A DNA stretch of 64,000 nt from an uncultured Prevotellaceae bacterium (lineage in GTDB: Bacteria > Bacteroidota > Bacteroidia > Bacteroidales > Muribaculaceae), in NCBI GenBank assembly GCA_900320055.1, contig ONQS01000003.1, positions 1-64,000 on the forward strand, written 5' to 3'. The notes below the pieces were generated by a model. That model saw only the letters and a list, made by a program, of their open reading frames with translations, made no database searches and was not told where the DNA came from. Positions 36,059-54,896 of this stretch are shown piece by piece. Both the position numbers and the translations under genes were made by a program. How positions within the stretch are numbered: position 1 is the first letter of the stretch; every line of letters begins with the position of its first letter.

Positions 36059-37042
36059 ATGAAGACCCTGTTTAGAGCCATATTCGGCCTCTGCCTTATG
36101 GCGATGTTCTGGATGCCGATGAGTGCTCAAGAGAGTGCCACACGCGGCGATGTGGATAACGATAAAGATGTGACAATCAGCGATGTGACGGCATTGATCG
36201 ATTACCTGCTCAAGGGCAGTGACGACCCGCGCATCGCAGTGGCGGCCGATGTGGATCAGGACAATGCTGTCACCATCAGCGACGTGACGGCTCTGATCGA
36301 CTACCTGCTCAAGGGCGAGTGGCCCTATGTGGCCCAAGTCGAGGAGATTACTGTGGGCACTGTCACTTTCAGGATGATTCCCGTGCAGGGAGGCACCTTC
36401 ACCATGGGAGGGCGCGAGAGCGACCCCTATGTGAGGCCTTGGGAGACACCGGCCCACGAGGTGACCCTATCGGATTACTACATCGCCGAAACCGAGGTGA
36501 CACAGGCGCTGTGGAAGGCTGTGATGGGCAACAATCCTAGTTATTTCAGATCCTATAACGGTTATACCGACGACTTTCAGCGTCCCGTTGAGAGTGTGAG
36601 TTATAGTCAGTGCAAGGCATTCATCAACAGACTGAACCAGAAGACGGGCAAGGTGTTCCGCATGCTCACCGAGGCCGAGTGGGAATATGCCGCACGTGGC
36701 GGCCGGCTGAGCAAGGGCTACCTGTATGCCGGCAGCGACAGTTCTGAACTGGTGGGGTGGTACAACGGCACCGCCGGCAAGATGCCGCACCCTGTGGCTT
36801 CGCTGCAGCCCAATGAGTTGGGCCTGTATGACATGAGCGGCAATATCGAAGAGTGGGTCAGCGATTATTATGGCCTCTATACCGAGGAGCCGCAGACCAA
36901 CCCCCAGGGACCCGCATCGGGCACTTATCATGTGTCCCGTGGTGGCAACTGGGACAGCGCCTTCAGGGGTTGCCGTGTGACCTACCGCTATGATGCCTAC
37001 GATGCGGCATCGTCGCACTATGGCCTGCGACTGGCCATGTGA
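36059..37042 (+). CDS. Exported FGE-sulfatase-fold protein with N-terminal dockerin-like domain
   Basis: A 327-residue secreted protein. After the signal (1-24) come two dockerin-type loops at about 29-86 (GDVDNDKDVTISDV and ADVDQDNAVTISDV, each followed by TALIDYLLKG). Residues 97-327 are a formylglycine-generating-enzyme-like (SUMF1) domain: FRMIPVQGGTFTMGGRES, YYIAETEVTQALWKAVMG, RMLTEAEWEYAARGG, LGLYDMSGNIEEWVSDYY and SRGGNWDSAFRGCR. The paired active-site cysteines of true FGE near the C-terminus are not present, so sulfatase activation is unlikely. Such domains often serve as binding modules. No sulfatase gene is nearby. Confidence 0.87.
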   Translation: MKTLFRAIFGLCLMAMFWMPMSAQESATRGDVDNDKDVTISDVTALIDYLLKGSDDPRIAVAADVDQDNAVTISDVTALIDYLLKGEWPYVAQVEEITVGTVTFRMIPVQGGTFTMGGRESDPYVRPWETPAHEVTLSDYYIAETEVTQALWKAVMGNNPSYFRSYNGYTDDFQRPVESVSYSQCKAFINRLNQKTGKVFRMLTEAEWEYAARGGRLSKGYLYAGSDSSELVGWYNGTAGKMPHPVASLQPNELGLYDMSGNIEEWVSDYYGLYTEEPQTNPQGPASGTYHVSRGGNWDSAFRGCRVTYRYDAYDAASSHYGLRLAM

Positions 37043-37070
37043 TGCCAGGCAAAATAGCCGTAACCTTATA

Positions 37071-37106
37071 GCCGGAGGGAGCCGTGACTGTGCGGTTCCC
37101 TCCGGC
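37071..37106 (+). terminator. Hairpin after FGE-fold gene
   Basis: Ten-base perfect stem GCCGGAGGGA (37071-37080) with TCCCTCCGGC (37097-37106). No T-run follows, so termination would be weak or factor-dependent. Confidence 0.45.
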
Positions 37107-37211
37107 CGCTGTTGCCAGGGTGGGGCAGGGGCGGCAGGCGCTTGGGCTATCCCAGCCGGTCCCCGTGTGTGAGGAGTTGTTAACAACTATGAAATTTAGG
37201 AAGTGAAAAGG

Positions 37212-37242
37212 TTGGTCAGTTCATAATATTTATGTATATTTG
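37212..37242 (+). promoter_or_regulatory. Promoter of nuo-atp-nuo operon
   Basis: TTG at 37212-37214 and TATATTTG at 37235-37242, spacing 20 bases. Transcription from here would give a leader of nearly 200 bases before nuoA. Confidence 0.65.
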
Positions 37243-37445
37243 CACCGCATTTTGGAGCGTCGCTGTGGCAATGATTTGCGCCCGATGGGCGTAAGTGGTT
37301 GTGCAGTAGAGGCTTTGATGTGTTCGTGTGAATTAACCTGCCAAAAATTAAAACCGATTTTGTGCAAGCCTCGCGACCTGAAAGCCCGCTTTCACTAACT
37401 TAGGCACCGCCAGAATTATTAAAACAACTACATACAACTTCTTTT
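37243..37445 (+). promoter_or_regulatory. Long structured 5' leader of nuoA
   Basis: About 200 untranslated bases. Visible: hairpin CGCCC/GGGCG (37279-37291) overlapped by a 7-codon frame (ATG at 37271), and a GAGGCTT (37309-37315) to AAGCCTC (37366-37372) pairing. I do not recognise a known riboswitch. Confidence 0.4.
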
Positions 37446-37820
37446 ATGGATTTATCAATTTTCGGAGTACAGAGTACCACACTCGCCATCACAGCGGCCT
37501 TGACCGGTGTGTTGCTGGTAGTCGGCGCTCTGGTTATCGCGTGGCTTATCGGCCCGCGCAGTTACACTGAGAAGAAAGGCGAGCCCTTTGAGTGCGGTAT
37601 CCCCACCAGGGGCGACTCGATGGCCCAGTATCATGTGGGCTATTACCTGTTTGCCATCCTGTTCCTGATGTTTGACGTGGAGACGGTGTTCCTGTTCCCC
37701 TGGGCAACCATCTGTAAGGGTATTGGCAGTCAGGCCCTGCTCGCCGTGGGCACTTTCCTTGTTATTTTGGTTTTAGGTCTGGCTTATGCCTGGAAGAAAG
37801 GAGCGTTGAGATGGAAGTGA
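37446..37820 (+). CDS. nuoA: NADH-quinone oxidoreductase subunit A
   Basis: A 124-residue membrane subunit of complex I with three helices. The conserved loop KGEPFECGIPTRGDSMAQYHVGYYL and FLMFDVETVFLFPWA identify it. It forms part of the quinone-end membrane arm. First gene of the 18-gene unit; its end overlaps nuoB by 10 bases, implying coupled translation. Confidence 0.97.
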   Translation: MDLSIFGVQSTTLAITAALTGVLLVVGALVIAWLIGPRSYTEKKGEPFECGIPTRGDSMAQYHVGYYLFAILFLMFDVETVFLFPWATICKGIGSQALLAVGTFLVILVLGLAYAWKKGALRWK

Positions 37821-38422
37821 AAATCAAGTCGATGAAGTATGAGGACTTCAAGGACAACGAGTATATCGAAAACCTGGTAGAGCAACTGCGCGCTGGCGGC
37901 ACCAACATCATCGTTGGCAAGTTGGACCAGTTGATGAACTGGGGCGTGAGCAACTCGCTGTGGCCGCTGTGCTTCGGCACCAGTTGCTGCGCCATCGAGT
38001 TTATGTGCCTGGGTGCTGCCCGCTACGACATGGCCCGCTACGGCTTTGAGGTGGCGCGCAACAGCCCCCGCCAGGCCGACTACATCATGTGCCAGGGCAC
38101 GATCAACTACCGCATGGCACCGGCCCTCAAGCGCCTGTATGAGCAGATGGCCGAGCCCAAGTATGTCATCGCCTGCGGCTCGTGCACCGTCAGCGGCGGC
38201 CCGTTCAAGAACAGTTACTGCGTGGTTAAGGGCGTGAACGAGATCATCCCCGTGGATGTGTATCTGCCCGGCTGCCCCCCGCGTCCCGAGGCCTTCTTCT
38301 ATGCCCTGATGCAGTTGCAGCGCAAGATCAAGGTGCAGAAGTACTTTGGCGGCGTTAACCGCAAAGAGAAACTCGAGGGCCTGAAGTATGACGGCAAGGT
38401 CCTGCAAGAGGAAGCCAAATAA
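37811..38422 (+). CDS. nuoB: NADH-quinone oxidoreductase subunit B
   Basis: A 203-residue peripheral subunit carrying the N2 iron-sulfur cluster next to the quinone site. Ligands are visible as tandem C59-C60 (FGTSCCAIEFMC), the cysteine in IACGSCTVSGG and the cysteine in YLPGCPPRPEA. Overlaps nuoA by 10 bases. Confidence 0.97.
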   Translation: MEVKIKSMKYEDFKDNEYIENLVEQLRAGGTNIIVGKLDQLMNWGVSNSLWPLCFGTSCCAIEFMCLGAARYDMARYGFEVARNSPRQADYIMCQGTINYRMAPALKRLYEQMAEPKYVIACGSCTVSGGPFKNSYCVVKGVNEIIPVDVYLPGCPPRPEAFFYALMQLQRKIKVQKYFGGVNRKEKLEGLKYDGKVLQEEAK

Positions 38423-38449
38423 TTTAACCCGACAAAAATCCATTCAGAT

Positions 38450-40084
38450 ATGGCAGATATACAAGAAAAAATCACTCAGTTGTGCCTCCAGGCTCAAGTC
38501 GACACCACGGGCGAGTTCCCCATGGTGACCGTCGATGACGCTCAGTGGCACGACCTGGCACGCGCCTTGAAGGAGCAGTTGCACTACGATGTGCTGAGCG
38601 CCGTCGTGGGCATGGACTGGACCGAGGCCCTGGGCTGTGTTTATTACCTGACCAACACCAGCACCCATGAGTTGCTGCACGTGAAGGTGGCTACCGCCGA
38701 CCGCGAGAATCCCCGCCTGCACTCGGTGGTGGACCTGTGGCCCGTGGCCAACTTCCAGGAGCGCGAGGTGTATGACTTCTTCGGCATCGTGTTTATCGGC
38801 CACCCCGACATGCGCCGCATGTTTCTGCGCACCGACTGGGTGGGCTACCCCCTGCGCAAGGACTATGATCCCGCGAGCAATCCCCTGCGTCTCGACGACG
38901 AGACCAACGAGGACTACACCTGCCGCTGGGTCGAGGACGAGCAGGGCAATGTCAAGAAGATCGACGGCAAGGTGTTTGAGGACGACGAGTATGTCGTGAA
39001 CGTGGGCCCGCAGCACCCGTCCACCCATGGTGTGATGCGCTATCGCGCCAGCCTCGACGGCGAGATCGTCAAGAAGATCGACGTCGTGAGCGGATACATC
39101 CACCGCGGCATCGAGAAGTTGTGTGAGAACCTGACCTATCCCCAGATGCTGCTCTACACCGAGCGCATGGACTATATGGCCGCCCACATCAACCGTCACT
39201 GCATGTGCATGTGTGTGGAGAAGGCCCTGGGTCTGGAAGTGCCCCGCCGTGCCGAACTCATCCGCCTGATGATGGACGAGTTGATGCGCCTGTCGTCACA
39301 CCTGCTCAGTTACGGCTGCTTGACGATGGACCAGGGCGCTACGACCGCCTTCTTCTACGGTTTCCGTGAGAGGGAATTGATCTATGACATCTTTGACCGC
39401 ACCTGCGGCGCCCGCATGTCGATGAGTTACAGCACCATCGGCGGTGTGGTGGCCGACGTGCATGAGGACTTTATTAAAGATGTGCGCCACGCCTGTGACG
39501 TCATCGAGAAGAATCTGGCCGAGTATCACAAACTCTTTACCGGTAACGTCATCGCCGTGAACCGCATGACGGGTGTGGGCATCCTCACCAAGCAGGAAGC
39601 CATCGCCTATGACATCACCGGCCCCTCGGGTCGCGCCAGCGGATGGCACTGCGACGTGCGCAAGACCAACCCCTACTCGCTGTATAACGAGTTTGACTTC
39701 GACGAGGTGACCTACGAGCATGGCGACTCGATGGACCGCTACATGGTGCGTATGCGCGAGATGGAGCAGTGCATCAAGATTCTGCGCCAGGCTTGCGACA
39801 AACTCGAGGCCGAGGGTATCCAGGGCGAGTACTGCGCTGCAAAGGTGCCCAAGGTGATGAAACTGCCCGCCGGCCACTGGTACCAGCAGGTAGAGGCTAG
39901 CCGCGGCGCCTTCGGCGTGTACATCGAGAGCGATGGCGGCACCAAGCCCGTGCGCGTGCACTTCCAGTCGCCGTGCTACAACCTGATCGGCGTGGTCGAC
40001 CTCACTTGCAAGGACAACATGATCGCCGACCTGATCACCATCACGGCATCGCTCGACTTCGTAATCCCCGATATCGACCGCTAG
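38450..40084 (+). CDS. nuoCD: Fused NADH-quinone oxidoreductase subunit C/D
   Basis: A 544-residue fusion. Residues 1-165 are the NuoC (30-kDa) domain (HSVVDLWPVANFQEREVYDF, FFGIVFIGHPDMRRMFLRTDW); from about 180 the NuoD (49-kDa) domain begins (YVVNVGPQHPSTHGVMRYRA) with YIHRGIEKLCENLTY and the C-terminal DFVIPDIDR. NuoD lines the quinone cavity with NuoB. The fusion is usual in several bacterial groups including Bacteroidota. Confidence 0.97.
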   Translation: MADIQEKITQLCLQAQVDTTGEFPMVTVDDAQWHDLARALKEQLHYDVLSAVVGMDWTEALGCVYYLTNTSTHELLHVKVATADRENPRLHSVVDLWPVANFQEREVYDFFGIVFIGHPDMRRMFLRTDWVGYPLRKDYDPASNPLRLDDETNEDYTCRWVEDEQGNVKKIDGKVFEDDEYVVNVGPQHPSTHGVMRYRASLDGEIVKKIDVVSGYIHRGIEKLCENLTYPQMLLYTERMDYMAAHINRHCMCMCVEKALGLEVPRRAELIRLMMDELMRLSSHLLSYGCLTMDQGATTAFFYGFRERELIYDIFDRTCGARMSMSYSTIGGVVADVHEDFIKDVRHACDVIEKNLAEYHKLFTGNVIAVNRMTGVGILTKQEAIAYDITGPSGRASGWHCDVRKTNPYSLYNEFDFDEVTYEHGDSMDRYMVRMREMEQCIKILRQACDKLEAEGIQGEYCAAKVPKVMKLPAGHWYQQVEASRGAFGVYIESDGGTKPVRVHFQSPCYNLIGVVDLTCKDNMIADLITITASLDFVIPDIDR

Positions 40085-40148
40085 AGCGCCGCCTGATGAC
40101 GAGAGTTAATATCACAAGAGAACAAAACCACTAAAAGAGACAAGAGAT

Positions 40149-41231
40149 ATGTTTGACTTCGGAACAGTCACGAGATGGTTAGATGAGTTGCTCAACAGTG
40201 TGATGCCCGCATGGCTCACGACGACGATCGAGTGTGTGCTGGTGGCCGTTGGCCTGCTGGTGGCTTATTCGCTCATCGCCATGTTCTACATCTTCTATGA
40301 GCGCAAGGTCTGCGGTTGGATTCAGTGCCGCCTGGGCCCGATGCGCGTGGGCAAGTGGGGCTTGCTCCAGGTGTTTGCCGACGTGATCAAGATCCTGCAG
40401 AAGGAGTTGATTACCCTGTGGCACACCGACAAGTTCCTCTTCAAGTTGGCTCCCTATCTGGTGCTCATCGCCTCGATGCTGACCTTTGCATGCCTGCCTT
40501 GGGGCAAGGGCCTGCAGATTGTGGACATGAACATCGGCGTGTTCTTTATCATCGCTGTGTCGTCGATCGGTGTGCTGGGCATCCTGCTCGCCGGTTGGGC
40601 CAGCAACAGCAAGTACACCCTGATCGGTGCTATGCGTAGCGGAGCCCAGATGATCAGTTACGAACTGAGTTGTGGCATCTCCATCCTGACGATCGTGTGC
40701 CTGGCTGGCACCATGTCGATCACCGGCATCGTCGAGGCTCAGGCCGACGGCTGGTTCCTGTTCAAGGGACACCTGCCCGCCATTCTCGCCTTCATCATCT
40801 ATATGATCGCCGCTAATGCCGAGAACAACCGTGGCCCGTTTGACCTGCCTGAGGCAGAGCACGAGTTGACCGCAGGCTACCATACCGAGTATTCGGGTAT
40901 CCACTTCGGCTTCTTCTATCTGGCCGAGTACCTCAACCTGTTTATCGTGTCGGGTATCGCCACGCTGCTCTTCCTGGGTGGCTGGATGCCCCTGCACATT
41001 CCCGGCTGGGAAGGCTTCAACCATGTGATGGACTTCATCCCCAGCGTGGTATGGTTCTTGGGCAAGGCCTTCTTCATCACCTTCATCTTCTTCTGGATCC
41101 GCTGGTCGTTCCCGCGCGTGCGCATCGACCAGATGCTGGCTCTGGAGTGGCGTTACCTGATGCCCATCGGCCTGGTCAACCTGGTGGTTATGGCCATCAT
41201 CGTGACCCAGGGCTGGTACTTCGGCGCCTGA
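40149..41231 (+). CDS. nuoH: NADH-quinone oxidoreductase subunit H
   Basis: A 360-residue membrane subunit with about eight helices, forming the quinone entry and the link from redox arm to pump. Motifs: [39 protein letters not shown] and [13 protein letters not shown]. In typical Bacteroidota operons nuoI would come next; here atpD follows after 101 bases. Confidence 0.97.
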
Positions 41232-41290
41232 TCTCCGACAGCGCGATATATTAATTATATAAGGAGAGACTAACACAGAATTATCTATAA

Positions 41291-42832
<1,542 letters not shown>

Positions 42833-42902
42833 TGACCGCTCGGCCCGCGTGCAGTTGAGAAAAAGATTATTATAACTGAGTTATACATTATTAATATATA
42901 AC

Positions 42903-43136
42903 ATGACACTCAAGATCATATCGGCTGAACAAATCGAGTTTGAAGGCACTGTCGAGCAGGTGACCCTGCCTGGCGTCATGGGACAGTTCCAGGTGCTGAA
43001 AAACCACGCCGCCCTCATCGCCGCCCTGCAGGCCGGCAAGATGAGTTATGTGGCCGATGGCAACACCGTGGAGCGTGACATTCACGGCGGTGTGGCCGAT
43101 GTCAAGGATAATGTGGTGTCGGTGTGCTTGTATTGA
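42903..43136 (+). CDS. atpC: ATP synthase F1 subunit epsilon, short form
   Basis: A 77-residue protein containing only the N-terminal beta-sandwich (EQIEFEGTVEQVTLPGVMGQ, LKNHAALIAALQAGKMSYV). The C-terminal two-helix domain that inhibits ATP hydrolysis in E. coli epsilon (about 138 residues) is absent. Short forms are known in Bacteroidota, so this is probably not a truncation. Confidence 0.93.
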   Translation: MTLKIISAEQIEFEGTVEQVTLPGVMGQFQVLKNHAALIAALQAGKMSYVADGNTVERDIHGGVADVKDNVVSVCLY

Positions 43137-43143
43137 TACAGGA

Positions 43144-44220
43144 ATGAAAAGCAAGATTATTACTGCGATTGTGGCCCTCGTGATTGTGGCACTGATGGGA
43201 CTGGGCTATTACAGTTCGGCCCAGCACCGTGCCGCCGGTCACGCCAGCGAGTTGGACCCCAAGGAGACCATCTTTGAGCACTTGGGCGACGCCTACGGCT
43301 GGGAGGTGCCCTTCAATCACAACGCGCGCATCCCGTTGCCCATCATCGTGTGGGGACAGGATGGCCTGCACTGTTTCATGAGCAGCCGCATCACCGGTGG
43401 GGAGACCTATGAGGGCTACAAGATCTCGACCAGCGAGCAGTATCACGGCAAGGTCGTGCAAGTGCTGCCCGACGGTGGCGAGTACCGCCCCTGGGACTTC
43501 TCGATCACCAAGAATGTCGCCGCCCTCATCATCGCCGCCCTGTTGGTGCTGTGGATGGTGCTGTCGCTCAAGCGCTGGTATGCCCGTCAGGGCATGAAGG
43601 CGCCTCGTGGCGGTAAGGGCGCCCTGGAGTTTGTGATCGGATTTGTCTATACCGACACCATCCGTCCCATCCTGGGCAAGCATGCGCCCAAGTATGCCCC
43701 CTACTTGCTGACGGCCTTCTTCTTTATCTTGACGATGAACCTGCTGGGACTGATCGTGATCTTCCCCGGTGGCGCCAACCTCACGGGCAATATCGCCGTG
43801 ACGATGGTGCTGGCCGTGCTCACCTTCCTGATCACGACCTTCAGCGGCACCAAGGAGTACTGGAAGGAAATCTTCTGGCCCGAGGTGCCCATGGCACTGA
43901 AGTGCCCCGTGCCCATGATGCAACTCATCGAGGTGCTGGGTATGTTCACCAAGCCGCTGGCCCTGATGGTCCGTCTGTTTGCCAACATGATGAGCGGCCA
44001 CATGGTGGTCCTCGTCCTCGTGTTGCTTATCTTTATCTTCACCAACCTGTTTGGGGTCGGTGTCGGCATCGGCACGAGCATCTTCTCGGTGGCTTTCACC
44101 CTGTTTATGCTCCTGCTCGACACCCTGGTGAGTTTCATCCAGGCCTATGTGTTCACCATCCTGAGCACCATCTTCATCTCGATGGCGCTTGTGGAGCCGC
44201 ATGAGCATGAGGCCAAGTAA
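43144..44220 (+). CDS. atpB: ATP synthase F0 subunit a
   Basis: A 358-residue membrane subunit with the proton half-channels. The essential arginine is in KPLALMVRLFANMMSGH. Ahead of the usual five-helix core lies an extension of about 140 residues with an N-terminal hydrophobic segment and a soluble part, ending with a helix (IIAALLVLWMVLSL); long N-termini of this sort occur in Bacteroidota. The start MKSKIIT is chosen 8 bases after atpC; the gene for a small AtpI-like protein seen here in some relatives is missing. Confidence 0.95.
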   Translation: MKSKIITAIVALVIVALMGLGYYSSAQHRAAGHASELDPKETIFEHLGDAYGWEVPFNHNARIPLPIIVWGQDGLHCFMSSRITGGETYEGYKISTSEQYHGKVVQVLPDGGEYRPWDFSITKNVAALIIAALLVLWMVLSLKRWYARQGMKAPRGGKGALEFVIGFVYTDTIRPILGKHAPKYAPYLLTAFFFILTMNLLGLIVIFPGGANLTGNIAVTMVLAVLTFLITTFSGTKEYWKEIFWPEVPMALKCPVPMMQLIEVLGMFTKPLALMVRLFANMMSGHMVVLVLVLLIFIFTNLFGVGVGIGTSIFSVAFTLFMLLLDTLVSFIQAYVFTILSTIFISMALVEPHEHEAK

Positions 44221-44272
44221 CAAAGACCAAACCGGAATTTCAAAACAAACAACAAAAAATATTAACAATTAA

Positions 44273-44524
<252 letters not shown>

Positions 44525-44539
44525 TTTCCCTGAACTCAG

Positions 44540-45037
44540 ATGGAACTTTTCACGCCTGAATTTGGCCTGGTCTTCTGGATGTTCCTGGCATTTCTGTGCC
44601 TGTACTTCATCCTTGCCAAGTGGGCATGGCCCTTCATCATCAAGTCGATTGAAGAGCGTGCCGAACTGATCGACAAGGGTGTGGCCTATGCACAGGAGGC
44701 CAAGTCGCATCTCGACAATGCCAAGGCCGAGGCCGACAAGTTGCTCGCCCAAGCGCGTGACGAGCAGGCCGACATCCTGCGTGAGGCCACCAAGATGCGC
44801 AACGAACTCATCGAGCAGGCCCGCGGCGACGCTGCCGAGGAGGCCAAAAAGGTGGCTCAGGCTGCCCAAGTGTCGCTCGAGCAGTCGCGCAAGGAGGCCG
44901 AGAAGCAACTGCGCGAGCAGGTGGGCGACTTGGCACTGCAAATCGCCGAGAAGGTCATCCGCCGCAACATTGCCAGCGATGATGCCCAGCGGGCGCTTGT
45001 TGACCAATATCTGAGTGAGGTTGAGACTAAAAACTAA
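44540..45037 (+). CDS. atpF: ATP synthase F0 subunit b
   Basis: A 165-residue stator subunit: one N-terminal membrane helix (GLVFWMFLAFLCLYFILAKW) and a long charged, alanine-rich coiled coil that reaches F1. 15 bases after atpE. Confidence 0.95.
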   Translation: MELFTPEFGLVFWMFLAFLCLYFILAKWAWPFIIKSIEERAELIDKGVAYAQEAKSHLDNAKAEADKLLAQARDEQADILREATKMRNELIEQARGDAAEEAKKVAQAAQVSLEQSRKEAEKQLREQVGDLALQIAEKVIRRNIASDDAQRALVDQYLSEVETKN

Positions 45038-45043
45038 CGCGAT

Positions 45044-45589
45044 ATGAGTGACGGACTGATTCCACGCCGATACGCTAAAGCGCTCTACAAGTACGCCGTC
45101 GAGAACGGTGACGCCCAGGAGATCTATGAACTCCTGAAGACGCTCAGTTTCCGCTACACCGCTATCGACGAACTCAAGCGCGCGGTGCTCAACCCCGAAA
45201 TCTCTGACGAGGCTAAGGGGGCCTATATGCTCAATCTCGTGGGCGGCAAGCCCGGCAGTTCGCTGGACAAGTTCCTGCTGCTGTGCGTGCGCAACGGCCG
45301 CGCCGAGTATCTGCAGAAGATATCCCTGGCCTATGTCGAACTCTATCGCGAGGCGCATGAGATCGCCCACGTGGTCATCACCACCGTGGTGCCCATGCCC
45401 GAGCAGGAGGTCAATGCCATTATCGACATCGTCAAGAAGCGCCTGGGGGCCATGACGCTCGAGATCGAGCAGGTGATCGACCCCAGCCTGATTGGCGGCT
45501 TCACCGTCAAGATCAACGGCCTGGTGCTCGACGCGTCGGTAAAGAGAGAGTTGAACGAATTGCGATTACAACTGCAAAAGAAAAACTAG
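45044..45589 (+). CDS. atpH: ATP synthase F1 subunit delta
   Basis: A 181-residue stator protein joining subunit b to F1. The N-terminal IPRRYAKALYKYAVENG and the C-terminal IDPSLIGGFTVKINGLVLDASV are typical OSCP/delta segments. 6 bases after atpF. Confidence 0.95.
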   Translation: MSDGLIPRRYAKALYKYAVENGDAQEIYELLKTLSFRYTAIDELKRAVLNPEISDEAKGAYMLNLVGGKPGSSLDKFLLLCVRNGRAEYLQKISLAYVELYREAHEIAHVVITTVVPMPEQEVNAIIDIVKKRLGAMTLEIEQVIDPSLIGGFTVKINGLVLDASVKRELNELRLQLQKKN

Positions 45590-45601
45590 AATTCTACAGA
45601 G

Positions 45602-47197
45602 ATGATTAATCCCAGTGAAATATCTGACATACTGAAACAACAACTCGTCGAGGACATCGCCAAGCGGCAGGCCGCCTTTGAGGAAGAAGGCACCGTCCTG
45701 GAGGTGGGTGACGGTGTGGCTCACGCCTATGGCCTGCACAATGTCGAGGCCAACGAACTGGTGCAGTTCGAGAATGGTGTGACCGGCGTCGCTATGAACC
45801 TGGAAGAGAGTGATGTGGGTATCATCCTGCTCGACGAGGTCGACAGTGTGACCGAGAACATGAAGGTGCGCCGCACCGGCGAGATCGCCTCCATCGAGGT
45901 GGGCGAGGGCTTGCTGGGCCGCGTGATCAACGTGCTGGCCAAGCCCATCGACGGCAAAGGATCCATCGAGGGCAAAAAACTGCGTCTGCCGCTCGAGCGC
46001 AAGGCTCCTGGCGTTATCTTCCGCCAGCCCGTGAACCAGCCGCTGCAGACCGGCCTCAAGGCCATCGACTCGATGATCCCCATCGGCCGCGGACAGCGCG
46101 AACTTATCATCGGTGACCGCCAGATCGGCAAGACCGCCATCGCGGTGGACACCATCATCAACCAGCGTGCTGGCTACGAGGCCGGCAAGCCGGTATACTG
46201 CATCTATGTCGCCATCGGTCAGAAGGCTTCGACCGTGGCAGCCCTGGTCAACAAACTCGAGGAGAGCGGCGCACTGCCCTATACCATCGTGATTGCCGCC
46301 ACCGCTGCCGACTCGGCATCGATGCGCTATTATGCCCCCTTTGCCGGTGCAGCCATCGGCGAGTACTTCCGCGACACCGGCCGCGACGCTCTGGTCATCT
46401 ATGACGACCTGTCCAAGCACGCGGTGGCCTACCGTGAGATCTCGCTGATCCTCAAGCGCCCCTCGGGCCGTGAGGCTTATCCCGGCGACATCTTCTATCT
46501 GCACAGCCGTCTGCTGGAGCGTGCAGCCAAGATCAACGAGAACCAGGCTGTGGCCAGCGTGATGAACGACCTGCCCGAGCCGCTCAAGCCCATCGTCAAG
46601 GGCGGCGGTTCTCTCACGGCACTTCCCATCATCGAGACGCAGGCCGGCGACGTGAGCGCCTACATCCCCACCAACGTGATTTCGATCACCGACGGTCAGA
46701 TCTACCTCGAGTCGGCCCTGTTCAACTCCGGTATCCGTCCTGCCGTCAACGTGGGTATCTCGGTATCCCGTGTGGGTGGTAACGCTCAGATAAAGTGTAT
46801 GAAGAAGGTGGCTGGTACCCTCAAGATCGCCCAGGCGCAGTACCGTGAACTCGAGGCCTTCACCAAGTTTGGTGGCGACATCGACCCCGTTACGGCACGC
46901 ACCATCGACACTGGCCGCAAAAACGAGCGCCTGCTCGTGCAGCCCCAGTACACTCCCATGCAAGTCGAGGAACAGGTGGCCATCATCTACTGCGGTGTGA
47001 ACGGTCTGTTGCGCGACGTGCCCCTGGACAAGGTGGGCGAGTTTGAGAAACTGTTTATCCAGTACCTGCGTGGCAAGCACCAGAGCGATGTGCTCGACGT
47101 GCTGCGCAGCGGCAAGATCGACGACGATGTCATGAGCAAACTCAAGGCTGCCGCTGCCGAGATTTCGGCTAAGTATACCGAGGCTCCTGCCAAATAA
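45602..47197 (+). CDS. atpA: ATP synthase F1 subunit alpha
   Basis: A 531-residue non-catalytic nucleotide-binding subunit. Walker [36 protein letters not shown] and the alpha signature [19 protein letters not shown] are visible. 12 bases after atpH. Confidence 0.98.
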
Positions 47198-47224
47198 AAT
47201 TTCAGCAATCATTTAGTTCGCAAG

Positions 47225-48103
47225 ATGTCAACATTAAGAGAACTCAAAACGCGTATAGGCTCGGTGGCCTCGACCCAGAAGACGACAAGCGCCATGAAGA
47301 TGATCTCGTCGTCCAAGATGCGCAAGGCTACCGGCCAGTTGCAGCGCCTGTCACCCTACCGCCACATGGTGCAGCACGTGATCAGCCACCTGCTGGTGAC
47401 TGACCAGCAGTTTGACTCGCCGCTCATCGCCGAGCGCGAGGTGCAGCGTGTTGCCCTGGTGGTGTTTGGCAGTGACGATGGCCTGTGCGGCGGTTTCAAC
47501 GTCAACATCTTCAAGCAGTTGCTCGTCACTATCGACGAGGTGCGCCGCCAGTATGGCGACCAGGTGGGCATCACCGTGGTGCCCGTGGGCAAGAAGATGG
47601 CTAAGGCTGTCGACAAGATCGGCGGCGTCCAGGTGGAGCGCGTGGCCCTCAACACCCGCAGCGGCAGCGAGGACCTGTATGCCTTTACCGACCTGATGAA
47701 GACCCGTTTCCTGGAGCACACGTTCGACCGTGTGGAGATGCTCTACATGCACTTCATCTCCACCGGCAAGCAGGTGTTCACGCGCGAGCAGTTGCTGCCC
47801 GTGAGTTATCAGGGTCTTGCCGACAATGTTGACCCGCGTGCCGCCAACAGCCCTTGCCTGTTTGAGCCCGACGCCAACACCATCTTCAACACGGTGCTGC
47901 CCCTGCACGTGAAGTCGATGCTCCAGGATGTGTTCATCCAGAGCGCGGCCAGCGAGCAGAGCGCGCGCGTGATGGCGATGCAGGCGGCGAGCGACAACGC
48001 CAAGGAGTTGCTCGACGAGTTGCAACTGGAGTACAACAAACTGCGTCAGCAGGGCATTACCACCGAGTTGCTCGACATCCTGGGCGGCCAGGTGGAACGC
48101 TAA
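47225..48103 (+). CDS. atpG: ATP synthase F1 subunit gamma
   Basis: A 292-residue central shaft. The N-terminal STLRELKTRIGSVASTQKTT and C-terminal RVMAMQAASDNAKELLDELQ helices that form the rotor coiled coil are clear. Last gene of the ATP synthase block; nuoI follows after 44 bases without a promoter-like sequence. Confidence 0.96.
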   Translation: MSTLRELKTRIGSVASTQKTTSAMKMISSSKMRKATGQLQRLSPYRHMVQHVISHLLVTDQQFDSPLIAEREVQRVALVVFGSDDGLCGGFNVNIFKQLLVTIDEVRRQYGDQVGITVVPVGKKMAKAVDKIGGVQVERVALNTRSGSEDLYAFTDLMKTRFLEHTFDRVEMLYMHFISTGKQVFTREQLLPVSYQGLADNVDPRAANSPCLFEPDANTIFNTVLPLHVKSMLQDVFIQSAASEQSARVMAMQAASDNAKELLDELQLEYNKLRQQGITTELLDILGGQVER

Positions 48104-48147
48104 CGCGAAGTAGTAACACATCAGCATCTAAGTAAAAACATTGAAAT

Positions 48148-48729
48148 ATGAGCATCAAGGAGTATTTCGTCTCAATCTTTAAAGGCTTTTACAGCCTGAT
48201 CAAGGGCATGGAGGTGACCGGTAAGGAACTGGTGACCCCCAAGGTGACCGAGCAGTATCCCGAGAATCGCGCCACACTGCACATTCCGGAGCGATTCCGT
48301 GCGACATTGGAGTTGATCTATGTTGACGGTTACCACAAGTGTATCGCCTGTGGCAGTTGCGAGCGCAACTGTCCCAACCAGACCATCAGCATCACCAAGC
48401 GCATGGTGGAGCAGCCCGACGGCAAGAAGAAAATGAAACTGGACAAGTACATGTATGACCTGGGAAGTTGCACCTTCTGCGGCCTGTGTGTACAGGTGTG
48501 CCCCACCAACGCGATCCGGTTCAGCAACGATTTTGAGCAGGCCGTGTTCACGCGTGACAAACTCGTTAAGCGGCTCAATTACCTGCCCGAGAAGGACGAC
48601 GCTCCCGCACCCGCCGCCAAGCCTGTGGCACCCGCTGCGCCCAAGGCTGCTGCCGAGCCCAAGCCGGCTTCCGCGGCACCCGCTGCTGCCGACGAGACTA
48701 AACAAGAACCTAAAGAAAACAAGGAATAA
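48148..48729 (+). CDS. nuoI: NADH-quinone oxidoreductase subunit I with Ala/Pro-rich tail
   Basis: A 193-residue ferredoxin-like subunit carrying two 4Fe-4S clusters: CIACGSCERNCP and CTFCGLCVQVCP. It passes electrons toward NuoB. The last 45 or so residues form a low-complexity Ala/Pro/Lys/Glu tail not needed for clusters; its role is unknown. The stop overlaps the nuoJ start by one base. Confidence 0.96.
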   Translation: MSIKEYFVSIFKGFYSLIKGMEVTGKELVTPKVTEQYPENRATLHIPERFRATLELIYVDGYHKCIACGSCERNCPNQTISITKRMVEQPDGKKKMKLDKYMYDLGSCTFCGLCVQVCPTNAIRFSNDFEQAVFTRDKLVKRLNYLPEKDDAPAPAAKPVAPAAPKAAAEPKPASAAPAAADETKQEPKENKE

Positions 48730-49244
48730 TGGAATCATTAGGTAACATCATTTTGTATTTTATCGTTGCGATCGCCATCATCGTCTTTTCGGTGCTGACG
48801 GTGACCACGCGCAAGATTTTGCGCTCCGCAACCTATCTGCTGTTTGTGCTGTTTGCCACAGCCATCATCTACTTCCAGATGGACTATCAGTTCCTGGGAG
48901 CGGTACAGATTGCCGTCTATGCCGGTGGCATCCTGGTGCTGTTTGTGTTTGCCATCATGCTCACGCATCAGCCGGGCAAGAATGCCGAGGCGCTGTCCAC
49001 GCATCGCCGTTGGCTGGGACTGACGGCCGCGCTGGCAGGTGTCGCCGTGTGCGGCTATAGCCTGTTCAGTTATGCCGGATTCGGTGGCAGGCTGCTCAGC
49101 GGCGATGTGGACGTCAATATGGAGAAGATAGGCCAGTTCTTGTTGAGTACCGACAAGTGGGGCTATCTGTTGCCTTTTGAGGCCATCAGTGTGTTGTTAT
49201 TGGCTTGTATCATTGGAGGTGTGGTTATTGCCCGTCGCCGCTAA
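48729..49244 (+). CDS. nuoJ: NADH-quinone oxidoreductase subunit J
   Basis: A 171-residue membrane subunit with five helices; YLLFVLFATAIIYFQMDYQF and AVQIAVYAGGILVLFVFAIM hold the conserved pi-bulge helix region. Overlaps nuoI by one base (TAATG). Confidence 0.94.
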   Translation: MESLGNIILYFIVAIAIIVFSVLTVTTRKILRSATYLLFVLFATAIIYFQMDYQFLGAVQIAVYAGGILVLFVFAIMLTHQPGKNAEALSTHRRWLGLTAALAGVAVCGYSLFSYAGFGGRLLSGDVDVNMEKIGQFLLSTDKWGYLLPFEAISVLLLACIIGGVVIARRR

Positions 49245-49260
49245 ACATGAAGTTAAGATT

Positions 49261-49572
49261 ATGGATTTGACACTGTTTATGTATCTCATTCCCAGCCTGA
49301 TCATGTTTGGCTGTGGCGTTTATGGTTTCATCACCCGCAAAAACATGATTGCGATCATGATTTCCCTGGAGTTGATGCTCAACTCGGTGGATATCAACTT
49401 TGTGGTGTTTAACCGTTACCTGTTCCCTGGTCAGATGGACGGCATGTTCTTCTCGCTGTTTGCGATTGCTATCGCAGCGGCCGAGACGGCGTTGGCCCTT
49501 GCCATCATCATCAATGTGTTCCGCTTGGCCAAGAACGTGGACATCAACCAAATCACTAAACTGAAATTCTAA
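49261..49572 (+). CDS. nuoK: NADH-quinone oxidoreductase subunit K
   Basis: A 103-residue three-helix proton-pathway subunit. The conserved glutamates lie in MISLELMLNSVDINF and AIAAAETALALAIIIN. Start at MDLTLFMYLIPS; an upstream in-frame Met lies inside nuoJ and is rejected. Confidence 0.96.
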   Translation: MDLTLFMYLIPSLIMFGCGVYGFITRKNMIAIMISLELMLNSVDINFVVFNRYLFPGQMDGMFFSLFAIAIAAAETALALAIIINVFRLAKNVDINQITKLKF

Positions 49573-49577
49573 CGATT

Positions 49578-51575
49578 ATGCCATTAAGTTTAGCAATAGT
49601 AGTTGTAGCATTGCCCCTGCTGATGTTCCTGTTCCTGGGACTCGTCGGGGTGAAGATGGGTAGAAAAATCACGGGTGTGATTGGCGTGTTGGCCATGCTG
49701 GTCGATACCGTTCTGGCCTATGGCGTTGCGTTGACCTACTTCTTCGGCAGCGGTCAGGGTCAGATGGTGGATGGCGTGCGTCAGGCCGTCGTCGTAGCCA
49801 ATCCCGCCTGGCTGTCGTTTACCGACACGCTGGTGGTGCGCATGGGTGTCCTGGTGGATCCCATCGCAGCCATGATGCTTGTGGTCATCACCACGGTATC
49901 GCTGATGGTGCACCTCTACAGCCTCGGTTACATGAGCGACCATGAGGGCAACGCCGAGAAGGGATTCCAGCGTTACTATGCCTTCCTGGCCCTGTTCACG
50001 TTCTCGATGCTGGGTCTGGTGGTTGCCACCAACATCTTCCAGATTTTTATCTTCTTTGAGATGGTGGGTCTGTCGTCCTACCTGCTCATCGGTTTCTATT
50101 ATTCCAGTCCTGCAGCCAATCATGCCAACAAGAAGGCCTTTATCGTCACCCGTCTGGCTGACTTGTTCTTCCTGTTGGGTATCATGATCCTGAGTTACTA
50201 CACGGGCACGTTCGACTTCGACAAACTGGTCTTTGGACCCACGATGTCGGGTAGCCTCGAGACGGCTCAGAGCGCCATCAGCACTGCCGGAGGCGCCACC
50301 TTTATGGGCTGCTCGGTAATGGCTTGGGCGCTGACCTTCATCTTCATTGGCGGCGCTGGTAAGAGTGCGATGTACCCGCTGCACATCTGGCTGCCCGATG
50401 CCATGGAGGGTCCCACGCCTGTGTCGGCCCTGATCCATGCTGCTACGATGGTTGTCGCCGGTGTGTTCCTGGTGGCTAGGCTCTTCCCGCTGTATGTGCT
50501 TGTGCAGGGTGCTATGAACATCATCCTGGTCGTTGGCGCCTTCACGGCATTCTATGCAGCCGCCATCGCCTGCACCCAGAGCGACATCAAGCGAGCGCTG
50601 GCCTTCTCGACCATCTCTCAGATTGCCTACATGATGACTTCGCTTGCCGTTAGTTCGATGAACAATAGCCTGATCGAGATACACGAGGGCTATGGTCTTG
50701 GCTACATGGCATCGATGTTCCATCTGTTCACCCACGCCATGTTCAAGGCGTTGCTCTTCCTGTGCGCCGGTGCTATCATCCACGCCGTTCACAGCAACGA
50801 GAACAGCAAGATGCACGGTCTGCACAAGTTCATGCCCATCACCAGCATCGCCTTCCTGATCGGCTGTCTGGCCATCGCGGGTATTCCCCCGTTTGCCGGC
50901 TTCTGGAGCAAGGATGAGATCCTTGTCGCTGCCTACCAGCGCGGTCTGGGTTGGGGCCTGTGGATGTCGATGGTGGCTGGTATGACCGCCTTCTACATGT
51001 TCCGCATCTACTACCTCATCTTCTTCTGGAAGAAACATGAGGTACACGATCCGCATCACGCTCCCAAGGATCAGCCCTGGACGATGACGCTGCCGCTCAT
51101 TATCCTGGCATCGATTTCGGTTGTGGCTGGCTTTGTTCCCTTCCACGACATGGTGACTTGGGACGGCAAGGCTCTGCACACCGCCCTCGACTGGACGGTT
51201 GCCGGCTCGAGCGTCTGCGTTGCCCTGGTGGGTATCGGCTTGGCCACGGTGATGTACTACAAGGAGAACCCGCTGCCCGAGCGCATGGCCAATGCGATGC
51301 GCGGCTTGTGGACCGCTTCCTACAAGCGCTTCTACATGGACGAACTCTACCAGTTCATCACCCACAAGGTGATCTTCCAGGCCATCTGCGTTCCCATCGC
51401 CTGGTTCGACCGTCACATCATCGACGGGTTCATGAACCTGCTGGCCGATGCGACCAACTCGTTCTCCTACTCGATCCGCCGCCTGCAGTCGGGTAGCATC
51501 CAGTCCTACGTGTTTGTGTATCTGCTGGGAGCCCTTCTGCTCGCCGCAGTCACTATGGTGTGTGTGTTACTCTAA
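49578..51575 (+). CDS. nuoL: NADH-quinone oxidoreductase subunit L
   Basis: A 665-residue antiporter-like pump subunit with about 16 helices and the long lateral C-terminal helix. Motifs: FEMVGLSSYLLIGFYY (with the key Glu), KSAMYPLHIWLPDAMEGPTP, SALIHAATMVVAGVFL and DIKRALAFSTISQIAYM. Confidence 0.97.
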   Translation: MPLSLAIVVVALPLLMFLFLGLVGVKMGRKITGVIGVLAMLVDTVLAYGVALTYFFGSGQGQMVDGVRQAVVVANPAWLSFTDTLVVRMGVLVDPIAAMMLVVITTVSLMVHLYSLGYMSDHEGNAEKGFQRYYAFLALFTFSMLGLVVATNIFQIFIFFEMVGLSSYLLIGFYYSSPAANHANKKAFIVTRLADLFFLLGIMILSYYTGTFDFDKLVFGPTMSGSLETAQSAISTAGGATFMGCSVMAWALTFIFIGGAGKSAMYPLHIWLPDAMEGPTPVSALIHAATMVVAGVFLVARLFPLYVLVQGAMNIILVVGAFTAFYAAAIACTQSDIKRALAFSTISQIAYMMTSLAVSSMNNSLIEIHEGYGLGYMASMFHLFTHAMFKALLFLCAGAIIHAVHSNENSKMHGLHKFMPITSIAFLIGCLAIAGIPPFAGFWSKDEILVAAYQRGLGWGLWMSMVAGMTAFYMFRIYYLIFFWKKHEVHDPHHAPKDQPWTMTLPLIILASISVVAGFVPFHDMVTWDGKALHTALDWTVAGSSVCVALVGIGLATVMYYKENPLPERMANAMRGLWTASYKRFYMDELYQFITHKVIFQAICVPIAWFDRHIIDGFMNLLADATNSFSYSIRRLQSGSIQSYVFVYLLGALLLAAVTMVCVLL

Positions 51576-51610
51576 TATCAACGGTCTTGACAAAATAGAA
51601 AGGATATACA

Positions 51611-53140
51611 ATGGAAATTTTCAATAATATACTGATTTACTTTGTGATCGTGCCTCTGTTGACACTCGGAGGTCTGGCCTTGTGCAGCAACCGCGGCATC
51701 AAGGCCATCAGGACCGTTGCCGTCGTTGGCGCCAGTGTGCTTGTGGTGCTGGCAGCGATGCTCGTGAGCATCTTCCTGCAGGCCCGCGGCGCTGGTGACA
51801 CCAGCGAGATGATCCTGCGCAGCGACGTGATGTGGTATGCCCCGTTCAACGTGCATCTGGCCCTGGGTGTGGATGGCGTCAGCGTCGTGATGATCCTGTT
51901 GTCGGCCTTTATCGTGTTTGCCGGCGTCTTTGCCTCGTGGAAGATGAACCCGCTGCCCCGTCAGTTCTTCATGTGGTTCTTCCTGCTGTCCACGGGTGTG
52001 TTTGGCTTCTTTATCTCGATCGACCTGTTCACGATGTTCATGTTCTATGAGGTCGCTCTGATTCCCATGTACCTGCTTATCGGTGTGTGGGGCAGCGGCA
52101 ACAAGAACTACAGTGCGATGAAACTGACGCTGATGCTGATGGGTGGCTCGGCCTTCCTGATGCTCGGCCTGATCGGTATCTACTTCCACTCGGCTCCCGA
52201 GGGTCAGCCCTTGACGATGAACATCCTGGACATCGCCCATAACAATGCGATTCCCCACGGCTGGCAGTATGTGCTGTTCCCGCTGACGTTTGTCGGCTTT
52301 GGCGTGCTGGGTGCCATGTTCCCGTTCCACACATGGTCTCCCGATGGTCATGCCTCGGCGCCCACCGCGGTGTCGATGCTCCACGCCGGTGTGCTGATGA
52401 AGTTGGGTGGTTATGGCTGCTTCCGCATCGCCATCTATCTGATGCCGTTTGCCGCCAACGAGTTGGCTTGGATCTTCCTGCTGCTCACGGGCTTCAGCAT
52501 CGTCTATGGTGCCTTGAGTGCCTGTGTCCAGACCGACCTGAAGTACATCAACGCCTACTCGAGCGTGAGCCACTGCGGTATGGTGCTGTTTGCCATCCTG
52601 ATGTTCAACACCACGGCGATGACGGGTGCTGTGCTGCAGATGCTGTCTCACGGTCTGATGACGGCCTTGTTCTTTGCCCTGATCGGTATGATCTATGGCC
52701 GCACCCACACGCGTGACATCCGCGACATGGGCGGTATGATGCACATCATGCCTTACCTGGGCGTGGGCTACGTGATTGCCGGTCTGGCATCGCTGGGTCT
52801 GCCGGGTCTGAGCGGTTTCGCTGCCGAGATGACCATCTTCTTCGGCTCGTTCCAGCACACCGACATGTTCCACCGTGTGCTCACCATCATGGCGACCACG
52901 TCGATTGTCGTGACGGCGGTCTACATCCTGCGCGTTGTTGCCAAGTTGCTCTTTGGCGAGGTACAGGACGAGCATCACCGCACGCTCACCGACGCCAGTT
53001 GGGAAGAGCGCCTGTCGACGGCCACGCTCATTCTGGCCGTGGCTGCCATCGGTTGCTTCCCCAACTTCTTTATTAACATCATCAGCAGCAGTTTTGACCC
53101 CGTCGTTAAGGCGCTGCAGGCTGCTCTGCCCGTGTTGTGA
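51611..53140 (+). CDS. nuoM: NADH-quinone oxidoreductase subunit M
   Basis: A 509-residue antiporter-like pump subunit with 14 helices. Motifs: FMFYEVALIPMYLLIGVWG, FPFHTWSPDGHASAPTAVSM and DLKYINAYSSVSHCGM. Confidence 0.97.
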   Translation: MEIFNNILIYFVIVPLLTLGGLALCSNRGIKAIRTVAVVGASVLVVLAAMLVSIFLQARGAGDTSEMILRSDVMWYAPFNVHLALGVDGVSVVMILLSAFIVFAGVFASWKMNPLPRQFFMWFFLLSTGVFGFFISIDLFTMFMFYEVALIPMYLLIGVWGSGNKNYSAMKLTLMLMGGSAFLMLGLIGIYFHSAPEGQPLTMNILDIAHNNAIPHGWQYVLFPLTFVGFGVLGAMFPFHTWSPDGHASAPTAVSMLHAGVLMKLGGYGCFRIAIYLMPFAANELAWIFLLLTGFSIVYGALSACVQTDLKYINAYSSVSHCGMVLFAILMFNTTAMTGAVLQMLSHGLMTALFFALIGMIYGRTHTRDIRDMGGMMHIMPYLGVGYVIAGLASLGLPGLSGFAAEMTIFFGSFQHTDMFHRVLTIMATTSIVVTAVYILRVVAKLLFGEVQDEHHRTLTDASWEERLSTATLILAVAAIGCFPNFFINIISSSFDPVVKALQAALPVL

Positions 53141-53180
53141 TGAAAGTGTTTAACCTGATAAAAATTGCACAATAATAGAT

Positions 53181-54650
53181 ATGATGGATTATTCACAATT
53201 CTTGTTGATGCCGCAGGAGATAGGCCTGTTGCTGGTTTTCCTGCTTGTTTTCATCTATGACACTTTCATGCCAGAGCGCTCACAGCGTTACATGCCCGTG
53301 TTCTCGGTCATCATGATGGCGCTCTACACGATATACTGTTTCTGCTGCCCCGCTGGGGTGGGAGAGGCCTTTGGCGGAATGTTTGAGTCTAACGCGGCCA
53401 CCTGGGTGATGAAGAACATCCTCAACGTGGGTGTCGTGCTGGTACTCCTGCAGGCCGTGAAGTGGACCAACAGCGACTTTGTGAGTGTTCGCCGCGGCGA
53501 GTTCTACGAGTTGACGCTGTTGACGCTGCTGGGCATGTTCCTCATGATTTCGGCACGCCACTTCCTGCTGTTTGTCATCGGTCTGGAGACGGCTTCGCTG
53601 CCCATTGCCGCGCTGGCCGCTTTTGAGAAGCGCTACTATGAGTCGCACGAGGCAGCCGCCAAGTACATCTTCACGGCTATCTTCTCGTCGGCGATCTTCC
53701 TGCTGGGCATCTCGTTTGTCTATGGTATGAGCGGTTCGCTCTACTTCAAGGACATCGCCACCGCGCTCATCGGCAACGGCTCGGCCCTGCTGATCGCTTC
53801 GCTGGCCTTTGTCATCGCCGGTGTGGGCTTCAAACTCTCGCTGGTACCGTTCCACCAGTGGACAGCCGACGTCTATCAGGGTGCTCCCACCGCTGTGACC
53901 AGTTATCTGTCGGTCATCAGCAAGGGCGCTGCCGCGTTCTCGTTCCTGGTGATTCTGGTGCAGGTGTTCGGCTCGGCCTACTCTCAGGTGTGGGAGTGGA
54001 TGCTCTATGCCGTGATTATCCTCACCATCACGCTGGGTAACCTGTTCGCCATCCGTCAGCGCAACCTCAAGCGCTTCCTGGCCTTCTCGTCGATCTCGCA
54101 GGCCGGCTACATCATGCTCGGTGTGATTGCCGTCAACGTGATGGGCATGTCGTCGATGATCTACTACGTGCTGGTCTACATCTTCAGCAACCTCGCCGCC
54201 TTTGGCGTGATTGCCGCTATCGAGCGCCACACGGGCCGAGTGACGATGGACGACTATAACGGTCTGTTCAAGACCAATCCTTGGCTGGCCTTCGCGATGA
54301 TGCTTGCGATGTTCTCGCTGGGCGGTATTCCCCCGTTTGCAGGCTTCTTCAGCAAGTTCTTCATCTTTGTGGGCGCATGCCATCAGGGTTCTGTTGCCAT
54401 CTATGCGCTGGTACTCATCGCCCTGGTCAACACCATCATCTCGCTGTACTACTACCTGCTGGTGGTTAAGGCCATGTTCCTGCGTCAGGACGATTGCGTG
54501 ATCGAGCACTTCACGAGCCACTGGACCGAGCGTCTGGGACTCATCCTGTGTGTGCTGGGCATCATCTTCATCGGCTTGGTATCCTGCATCTACGCCAGCA
54601 TCAATGGCGCTGTGGATGCCATCGGCGCAATGTTTGCAGCCGTGCAGTGA
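53181..54650 (+). CDS. nuoN: NADH-quinone oxidoreductase subunit N
   Basis: A 489-residue antiporter-like pump subunit. Motifs: IGLETASLPIAALAAFEK, KLSLVPFHQWTADVYQGAPT and NLKRFLAFSSISQAGYIM. Two tandem ATG codons (53181 and 53184) could start it. Last gene of the unit; a strong terminator follows. No nuoE, nuoF or nuoG is found, so the NADH-oxidising module is missing here and the electron donor is unknown. Confidence 0.97.
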   Translation: MMDYSQFLLMPQEIGLLLVFLLVFIYDTFMPERSQRYMPVFSVIMMALYTIYCFCCPAGVGEAFGGMFESNAATWVMKNILNVGVVLVLLQAVKWTNSDFVSVRRGEFYELTLLTLLGMFLMISARHFLLFVIGLETASLPIAALAAFEKRYYESHEAAAKYIFTAIFSSAIFLLGISFVYGMSGSLYFKDIATALIGNGSALLIASLAFVIAGVGFKLSLVPFHQWTADVYQGAPTAVTSYLSVISKGAAAFSFLVILVQVFGSAYSQVWEWMLYAVIILTITLGNLFAIRQRNLKRFLAFSSISQAGYIMLGVIAVNVMGMSSMIYYVLVYIFSNLAAFGVIAAIERHTGRVTMDDYNGLFKTNPWLAFAMMLAMFSLGGIPPFAGFFSKFFIFVGACHQGSVAIYALVLIALVNTIISLYYYLLVVKAMFLRQDDCVIEHFTSHWTERLGLILCVLGIIFIGLVSCIYASINGAVDAIGAMFAAVQ

Positions 54651-54746
54651 TCTGCCGGCACCGTACTGATATGAATACATTACTTCTGATATCATTTAGC
54701 ATAACCAAACAACTAAATTAATCAGGTTTATTCATAACAATGATTG

Positions 54747-54790
54747 GGAGAGCATCGTGGTGGTCCACTGTGCTCTCCTCTCTTTTTTTC
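54747..54790 (+). terminator. Terminator of nuo-atp-nuo operon
   Basis: GGAGAGCA (54747-54754) pairs with TGCTCTCC (54771-54778), with an inner GTGG/CCAC helix and a TTTTTTT run at 54783-54789. Confidence 0.9.
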
Positions 54791-54810
54791 TGAATTCATT
54801 AGCCCTTTAC

Positions 54811-54841
54811 TTGCGAATTTGACATTTTCTTGCTATATTTG
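54811..54841 (+). promoter_or_regulatory. Promoter of LRR/dockerin-like gene
   Basis: TTG at 54811-54813 and TATATTTG at 54834-54841, spacing 20 bases; ATG 55 bases downstream. Confidence 0.65.
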
Positions 54842-54896
54842 TGGCGAATAGTAATTGGATATACTAAAATTTATTAATTTTTAAACATATTGTGCT

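Follow-up and report, generated by a model that had tools for sequence, protein, structure and literature searches.

Functionally linked operons can be joined into superoperons, which are then conserved. In Bacteroidales, the genes of respiratory complex I, whose proton pumping can contribute to driving ATP synthase, make up a nuoABCDHIJKLMN operon, with nuoCD fused and nuoEFG absent from the locus, and those of the F-type ATP synthase make up an atpDCBEFHAG operon, the order found in 13 of the 16 non-nested atp regions of our comparison. The locus described here, on a 64,000-nucleotide stretch of contig ONQS01000003.1 from an uncultured Prevotellaceae bacterium (the window), has the same genes in the same orders save for an insertion: atpD follows nuoH, nuoI comes 6.9 kb further on, and the atp genes stand inside the nuo operon with neither a promoter motif nor a strong terminator of their own. 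It differs from superoperons in general in that one operon lies whole within the other, splitting the complex I genes into two blocks. This order had a single origin followed by vertical descent, and shared transcription of the nested block is likely, judging from its sequence signals. The nesting is a variant of ordinary nuo and atp operons, not a new kind of system, and we found no published description of a nested nuo-atp locus in the open-licence literature.

The block spans positions 37446-54650 and runs on the + strand as nuoA-B-CD-H, atpD-C-B-E-F-H-A-G and nuoI-J-K-L-M-N. All 18 genes, counting the nuoCD fusion as one, were located in the order, on the single strand and with the gaps of at most 101 nucleotides (nt) reported in the initial annotation, the nuoH-atpD gap being the widest. 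Gene identities are NCBIfam model matches for each protein; AtpC, NuoA, NuoI and NuoJ score under the curated cut-offs, with top models that are still those same families. Comparison with relatives places the atpB start at 43144, 7 nt past the atpC stop, versus 43048 for the mechanical open reading frame. The promoter search used TAnnTTTG, given as the Bacteroides -7 consensus in PMC7366714. The features are as follows.

37235..37242, + strand: -7 element TATATTTG, the sole canonical promoter-like site before nuoA (motif scan)
37446..37820, + strand: nuoA (NCBIfam NuoA models, best E 1.5e-29, under curated cut-off)
37811..38422, + strand: nuoB (NF011391, 344.7 bits, above cut-off)
38450..40084, + strand: nuoCD fusion (NuoC part ~22-141, NuoD part 181-544)
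40149..41231, + strand: nuoH (NF004741, 335.3 bits, above cut-off)
41232..41332, + strand: nuoH-atpD junction, 101 nt (TAnnTTTG absent; weak hairpin spanning the nuoH stop)
41333..42832, + strand: atpD, beta subunit (TIGR01039, 766.5 bits)
42903..43136, + strand: atpC, short epsilon subunit of 77 amino acids (aa) (TIGR01216 positions 2-76 of 130, 57.9 bits, under cut-off 67.25)
43144..44220, + strand: atpB, a subunit (TIGR01131, 118.1 bits, above cut-off; start set by relatives)
44285..44524, + strand: atpE, c subunit (TIGR01260, 49.5 bits, above cut-off; translation)
44540..45037, + strand: atpF, b subunit (TIGR01144, 108.2 bits)
45044..45589, + strand: atpH, delta subunit (TIGR01145, 108.1 bits)
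45602..47197, + strand: atpA, alpha subunit (TIGR00962, 724.6 bits)
47225..48103, + strand: atpG, gamma subunit (TIGR01146, 242.7 bits)
48104..48147, + strand: atpG-nuoI junction, 44 nt (TAnnTTTG absent; terminator-like hairpins with a dG of -6 or below absent)
48148..48729, + strand: nuoI (TIGR01971, 105.9 bits, under cut-off 113.05)
48729..49244, + strand: nuoJ (NF005168, E 9.6e-23, under cut-off)
49261..49572, + strand: nuoK (NF004320, 86.5 bits, above cut-off; start at ATG 49261)
49578..51575, + strand: nuoL (NF005141, 578.2 bits, above cut-off)
51611..53140, + strand: nuoM (TIGR01972, 411.8 bits)
53181..54650, + strand: nuoN (TIGR01770, 371.1 bits)
54747..54789, + strand: terminator hairpin, perfect 8-bp stem GGAGAGCA/TGCTCTCC, loop of more than 8, with T-run (read from the sequence)

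Within the window's family (f1, probably Muribaculaceae), NuoH was found in 147 of 149 genomes and AtpD in 144 of 149, and the two genes are adjacent on one strand in 139 of the 147 genomes with NuoH, at gaps of 9-176 nt (median, 55). In the remaining eight, nuoH sits 0 to 631 nt from a contig end, so none of them shows another order. A chance neighborhood is excluded by the conservation of the order in 139/147 family genomes. NuoH was also used to scan named genomes. The 80 loci obtained carry the titles Muribaculaceae, Muribaculum, Duncaniella, Prevotellaceae, Porphyromonadaceae or simply Bacteroidales, apart from a few odd ones; in 76 of them, the first nuo or atp gene past nuoH is atpD, one (L056) having a 2.4-kb insert in between. 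Of the other four, one is too short to judge, and L096, L098 and L099 are not nested. These 76 loci refute the explanation that the order is an assembly artefact or a rearrangement private to the window's genome, for which the probability is practically nil, as does the presence of atpD after nuoH in the single-contig genomes G112, G406 and G378. The order can thus no longer be regarded as an anomaly of this genome, since every family genome with enough contig past nuoH has it; an order that is commonplace among close relatives was one of the refuting outcomes named in the initial annotation.

The nested order extends beyond the family but was not seen in the phylum sample outside the order. 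In a sample of 295 genomes from the order, the places of both genes were given for 74 among the matches listed; nuoH and atpD are adjacent in 26 and non-adjacent in 48 of these. All 26 fall into seven families, namely, f1, f99, f18, f54, f61, f80 and f24. Outside the order, the phylum sample gave 0 adjacent pairs among the 121 genomes with both places among the matches listed, a further 9 genomes with NuoH having no listed place. Twenty nested loci fetched from the six further families are whole to nuoN in 18 cases, one ending after atpE and one after nuoL. Conversely, 19 of 20 non-nested regions fetched from the order are nuo loci, and nuoI comes next after nuoH in all 19. Ten Bacteroidota genomes of the phylum sample, outside the order (G590, G527, G523, G577, G484, G585, G504, G515, G488 and G472), have a separate, convergent nuo-atp neighborhood, in which 7.5-15 kb separates the atpD start from a nuoH that lies on the opposite strand of the contig.

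Phylogenies of three protein sets each gathered the nested loci into one clade. In a quick RpoB tree of 50 genomes, all 26 nested rows form a clade with an SH-aLRT support of 99; 29 nested rows do so in trees of concatenated Nuo proteins (support 100/100) and of ATP synthase proteins (100/98). For the latter two trees, each stretch was assigned to its best query only, which keeps out paralogues (nuoL, atpD); G240 was left out of the ATP synthase tree as too little filled, and the Nuo tree does not include G387 or G014. The inner branching is broadly alike, with f99 and f18 adjoining f1 with support in all three trees. Family f80 is outermost in the Nuo and ATP synthase trees and groups with f54, with weak support, in the RpoB tree. 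Because the three trees each give one clade, the nested state arose once and was then inherited vertically, and the nested clade showed no case of reversion to two free operons. The ancestral insertion proposed in the initial annotation is supported by these trees and by the 19 non-nested loci in which nuoI follows nuoH.

The same final gene order would result from the reverse route, in which nuoI-J-K-L-M-N moved behind atpG and nuoA-B-CD-H was joined ahead of atpD. We regard this as improbable, since it requires two joins of nuo pieces and since the nuo operon seems to have kept its original ends, in the form of the TAnnTTTG element ahead of nuoA and the terminator behind nuoN. Horizontal transfer of the nested block between families appears far-fetched. 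Operons for ATP synthase may move, and family f96 has an ATP synthase that is sister to that of the nested clade with an RpoB that is far off, but a single nested clade is common to the trees of RpoB, Nuo and ATP synthase, all of which support the grouping of f1, f99 and f18. A wider ATP synthase tree, whose outgroup rows comprise atpD only and are ~25% filled, places the inserted ATP synthase among Bacteroidales genes from operons of the same atpDCBEFHAG order; for this reason, the inserted operon is probably native to Bacteroidales. The idea of an ATP synthase foreign to Bacteroidales is unsupported, given this grouping with same-order operons, although the inserted enzyme and that of f96 have a long stem (0.35) in common.

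The f96 ATP synthase (L128, L176) shares with the nested clade a stem of 0.38 changes per column in the ATP synthase tree and 0.35 in the wider tree, and RpoB puts f96 far away. Its atp operon is free-standing; in G253, nuoH and the atp start are 24 kb apart and on different strands. This pattern suggests either that the atp operon was transferred prior to nesting or at around that time, or a rate artefact. Genome G014 (f3; L019, L186) is sister to the nested clade in the RpoB tree, yet its NuoH is only 55% identical to that of the window, and its atp genes run B-E-F-H-A-G-D-C; both the nuo set and the atp set of this genome may be replacements. UBA1754 (L099:8932-12090) also has atpD-C-B behind nuo genes on the same strand, but there atp follows nuoN at 264 nt, nuoI is next after nuoH and the genome lies outside the nested clade. 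L099 is an independent nuo-atp neighborhood, with a long nuoH-nuoI gap of 222 nt, and its tandem order is unsupported as an intermediate, since it falls outside the nested clade.

Transcription signals in the window favor one unit. On the + strand of 37000-55000, TAnnTTTG occurs ahead of nuoA (37235), across the start codon of nuoH (40148) and ahead of the gene that follows the block (54834); it was not found on the - strand of this interval or at the nuoH-atpD and atpG-nuoI junctions. The single promoter before nuoA and the strong terminator after nuoN, both noted in the initial annotation, correspond to the motif at 37235 and the hairpin with T-run at 54747-54789. The block therefore has the usual marks of an operon as judged by the main-sigma motif, i.e., one strand, short gaps, a promoter only ahead and a strong terminator only behind. 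Rfam gave no match within 35000-56000.

Relatives show the same contrast between the ends and the interior of the block. TAnnTTTG lies within 300 nt ahead of nuoA in 77 of 90 nested loci, 42 of 86 sites being at 125-149 nt, and its density falls from 3.19 per kb upstream of nuoA to 0.45 in the nuoH-atpD gap, 0.32 in the atpG-nuoI gap and 0.18 in coding sequence. Within 300 nt before nested atpD and nested nuoI, it was found in 5/97 and 6/78 cases, respectively, rates that resemble those of the other inner genes (0 to 12 of 75-96; nuoM, 4/19; nuoN, 1/19). Non-nested atpD genes carry the motif within 250 nt upstream in 12 of 16 cases, or in 12 of the 15 whose atp set opens with atpD. A motif that is common before non-nested atpD and rare before nested atpD is most naturally read as loss of the atp promoter after atp had come to lie inside nuo. 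Terminator-like sites, defined as a hairpin followed by a T-run with a dG of -9 or lower, follow nuoN in 17 of 18 loci (the window plus 17 sister-family loci) and occur in 0 of 96 nuoH-atpD gaps, the control gaps giving 0/94, 1/73, 1/77 and 3/96. Beyond non-nested atpG, such a site was found in 8 of 14 loci, or in 7 of 13 without G014, an unclean control in which atpD follows atpG and the counted hairpin lies inside atpD.

The second inner junction behaves differently, and here the case for two or three transcripts has to be weighed, i.e., for atp and/or nuoI-N under their own non-canonical promoters, with a terminator or processing site in between. Several observations count against a single inherited unit. 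The atpG-nuoI gaps contain terminator-like sites in 11 of 77 cases versus 4 of 231 shuffles. Eight belong to the 19 sister-family gaps (L103 and L104 of f99, L111 and L112 of f54, and L114-L117 of f61), and the other three (L076, L077 and L079) to the remaining 58; L112 and L076 combine the hairpin with TAnnTTTG. Within the junction gaps proper, the motif was found in 3 of 96 nuoH-atpD gaps, including those of both f80 genomes, and in 3 of 78 atpG-nuoI gaps. The window's own 101-nt nuoH-atpD gap is AT-rich, and a weak hairpin (dG -8.5) with the T-poor tail ATTATATA spans the nuoH stop. Moreover, TAnnTTTG is the -7 element of the main sigma factor only, so that other promoter types escape detection, and non-nested nuoA genes themselves have it within 300 nt upstream in only 8 of 17 cases. 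As for the gene order, the family loci are closely related and their counts are not independent, support for the nested clade is lower in the wider ATP synthase tree (88/99), and in L056 (UBA2720) an open frame of 717 aa (L056:11078-13454) separates nuoH from atpD. This frame resembles a leucine-rich surface protein, as judged by eye without a family search, and may be an assembly join; it is the only insert of >200 nt at nuoH-atpD among the loci read. Separate transcripts nonetheless seem unlikely to us, because motif density at the two junctions is far under that upstream of nuoA and nearer that of coding sequence, and because no nuoH-atpD gap holds a terminator-like site. In some lineages, the atpG-nuoI junction may hold a relic or renewed terminator that is absent from the window. 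The fixed co-expression postulated in the initial annotation must therefore be qualified: the motifs favor a single unit in the window, but the hairpins in 11/77 atpG-nuoI gaps make the claim overstated, and TAnnTTTG is present at a few junctions elsewhere.

Overall, we hold with good confidence to one ancestral operon fusion that was vertically inherited and is probably read as one long transcript in the window genome, possibly attenuated after atpG elsewhere. In this scenario, a complete, native eight-gene atp operon came to separate nuoH from nuoI in one ancestor of at least seven Bacteroidales families, the window's own included, the receiving nuo operon being devoid of nuoE, nuoF and nuoG. 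The atp promoter would have been lost after nesting, as the motif distribution suggests, and transcription would therefore start before nuoA and end after nuoN, giving in the window genome a transcript from ~37.24 kb to ~54.79 kb, i.e., ~17.5 kb. Complex I and the F-type ATP synthase would then be made from one message, so that the membrane antiporter arm NuoJ-N would be expressed only via read-through of atp. Attenuation is probable in several sister families, where a hairpin behind atpG, either retained or acquired anew, would leave more ATP synthase message than distal complex I message. More tentatively, the ratio of pump to ATP synthase might be set on this single ~17.5-kb message by a tunable attenuator after atpG; the hairpin would lower nuoI-N relative to atp in several sister families and would have been erased in the window's lineage, such that the two complexes would be co-regulated and complex I assembly would depend on read-through of atp.

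NuoH has one match in the whole genome, which is 92.8% complete. The window holds nuoA, B, CD, H, I, J, K, L, M and N, with nuoE, nuoF and nuoG absent from the operon, and genome-wide searches recovered neither nuoF nor nuoG of complex I, nuoE having been searched at the locus. The one match to PF10589, the NuoF domain, is a protein with 2Fe-2S and 4Fe-4S domains beside an iron-only hydrogenase gene, and the sole NuoG match is under cut-off, covers 204 of 606 positions and lies in this same hydrogenase stretch. PF00006 matched at three places, namely, atpD and atpA of the window and a 700-aa frame on contig 21, which is probably Rho; no sign of a second rotary ATPase was seen among these places. 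As regards proton versus sodium coupling, the window's c subunit lacks the Na+ ligands of the Ilyobacter motif. As for published ATP synthase operons, PMC4154653 describes the Bacteroides fragilis atp order as similar to IB-IE-I-R-0A-0C-0B-IA-IG, without atpR, and gives a short epsilon for Bacteroidetes; atpC of the window is likewise short. Both neighbors of the block encode dockerin type I proteins, one with an FGE-sulfatase domain (36059-37042) and the other with leucine-rich repeats (54897-57194).

To conclude, these families share a clean derived marker in the nested order. Should the two junctions be co-transcribed, a large clade of gut bacteria has hard-wired the expression of its respiratory proton pump and its ATP synthase together, which would offer a direct test of whether selection keeps operons together for stoichiometry. 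A single taxonomic order contains both nested and free-standing versions of these operons, and the inner junction has a hairpin in some loci and none in others.

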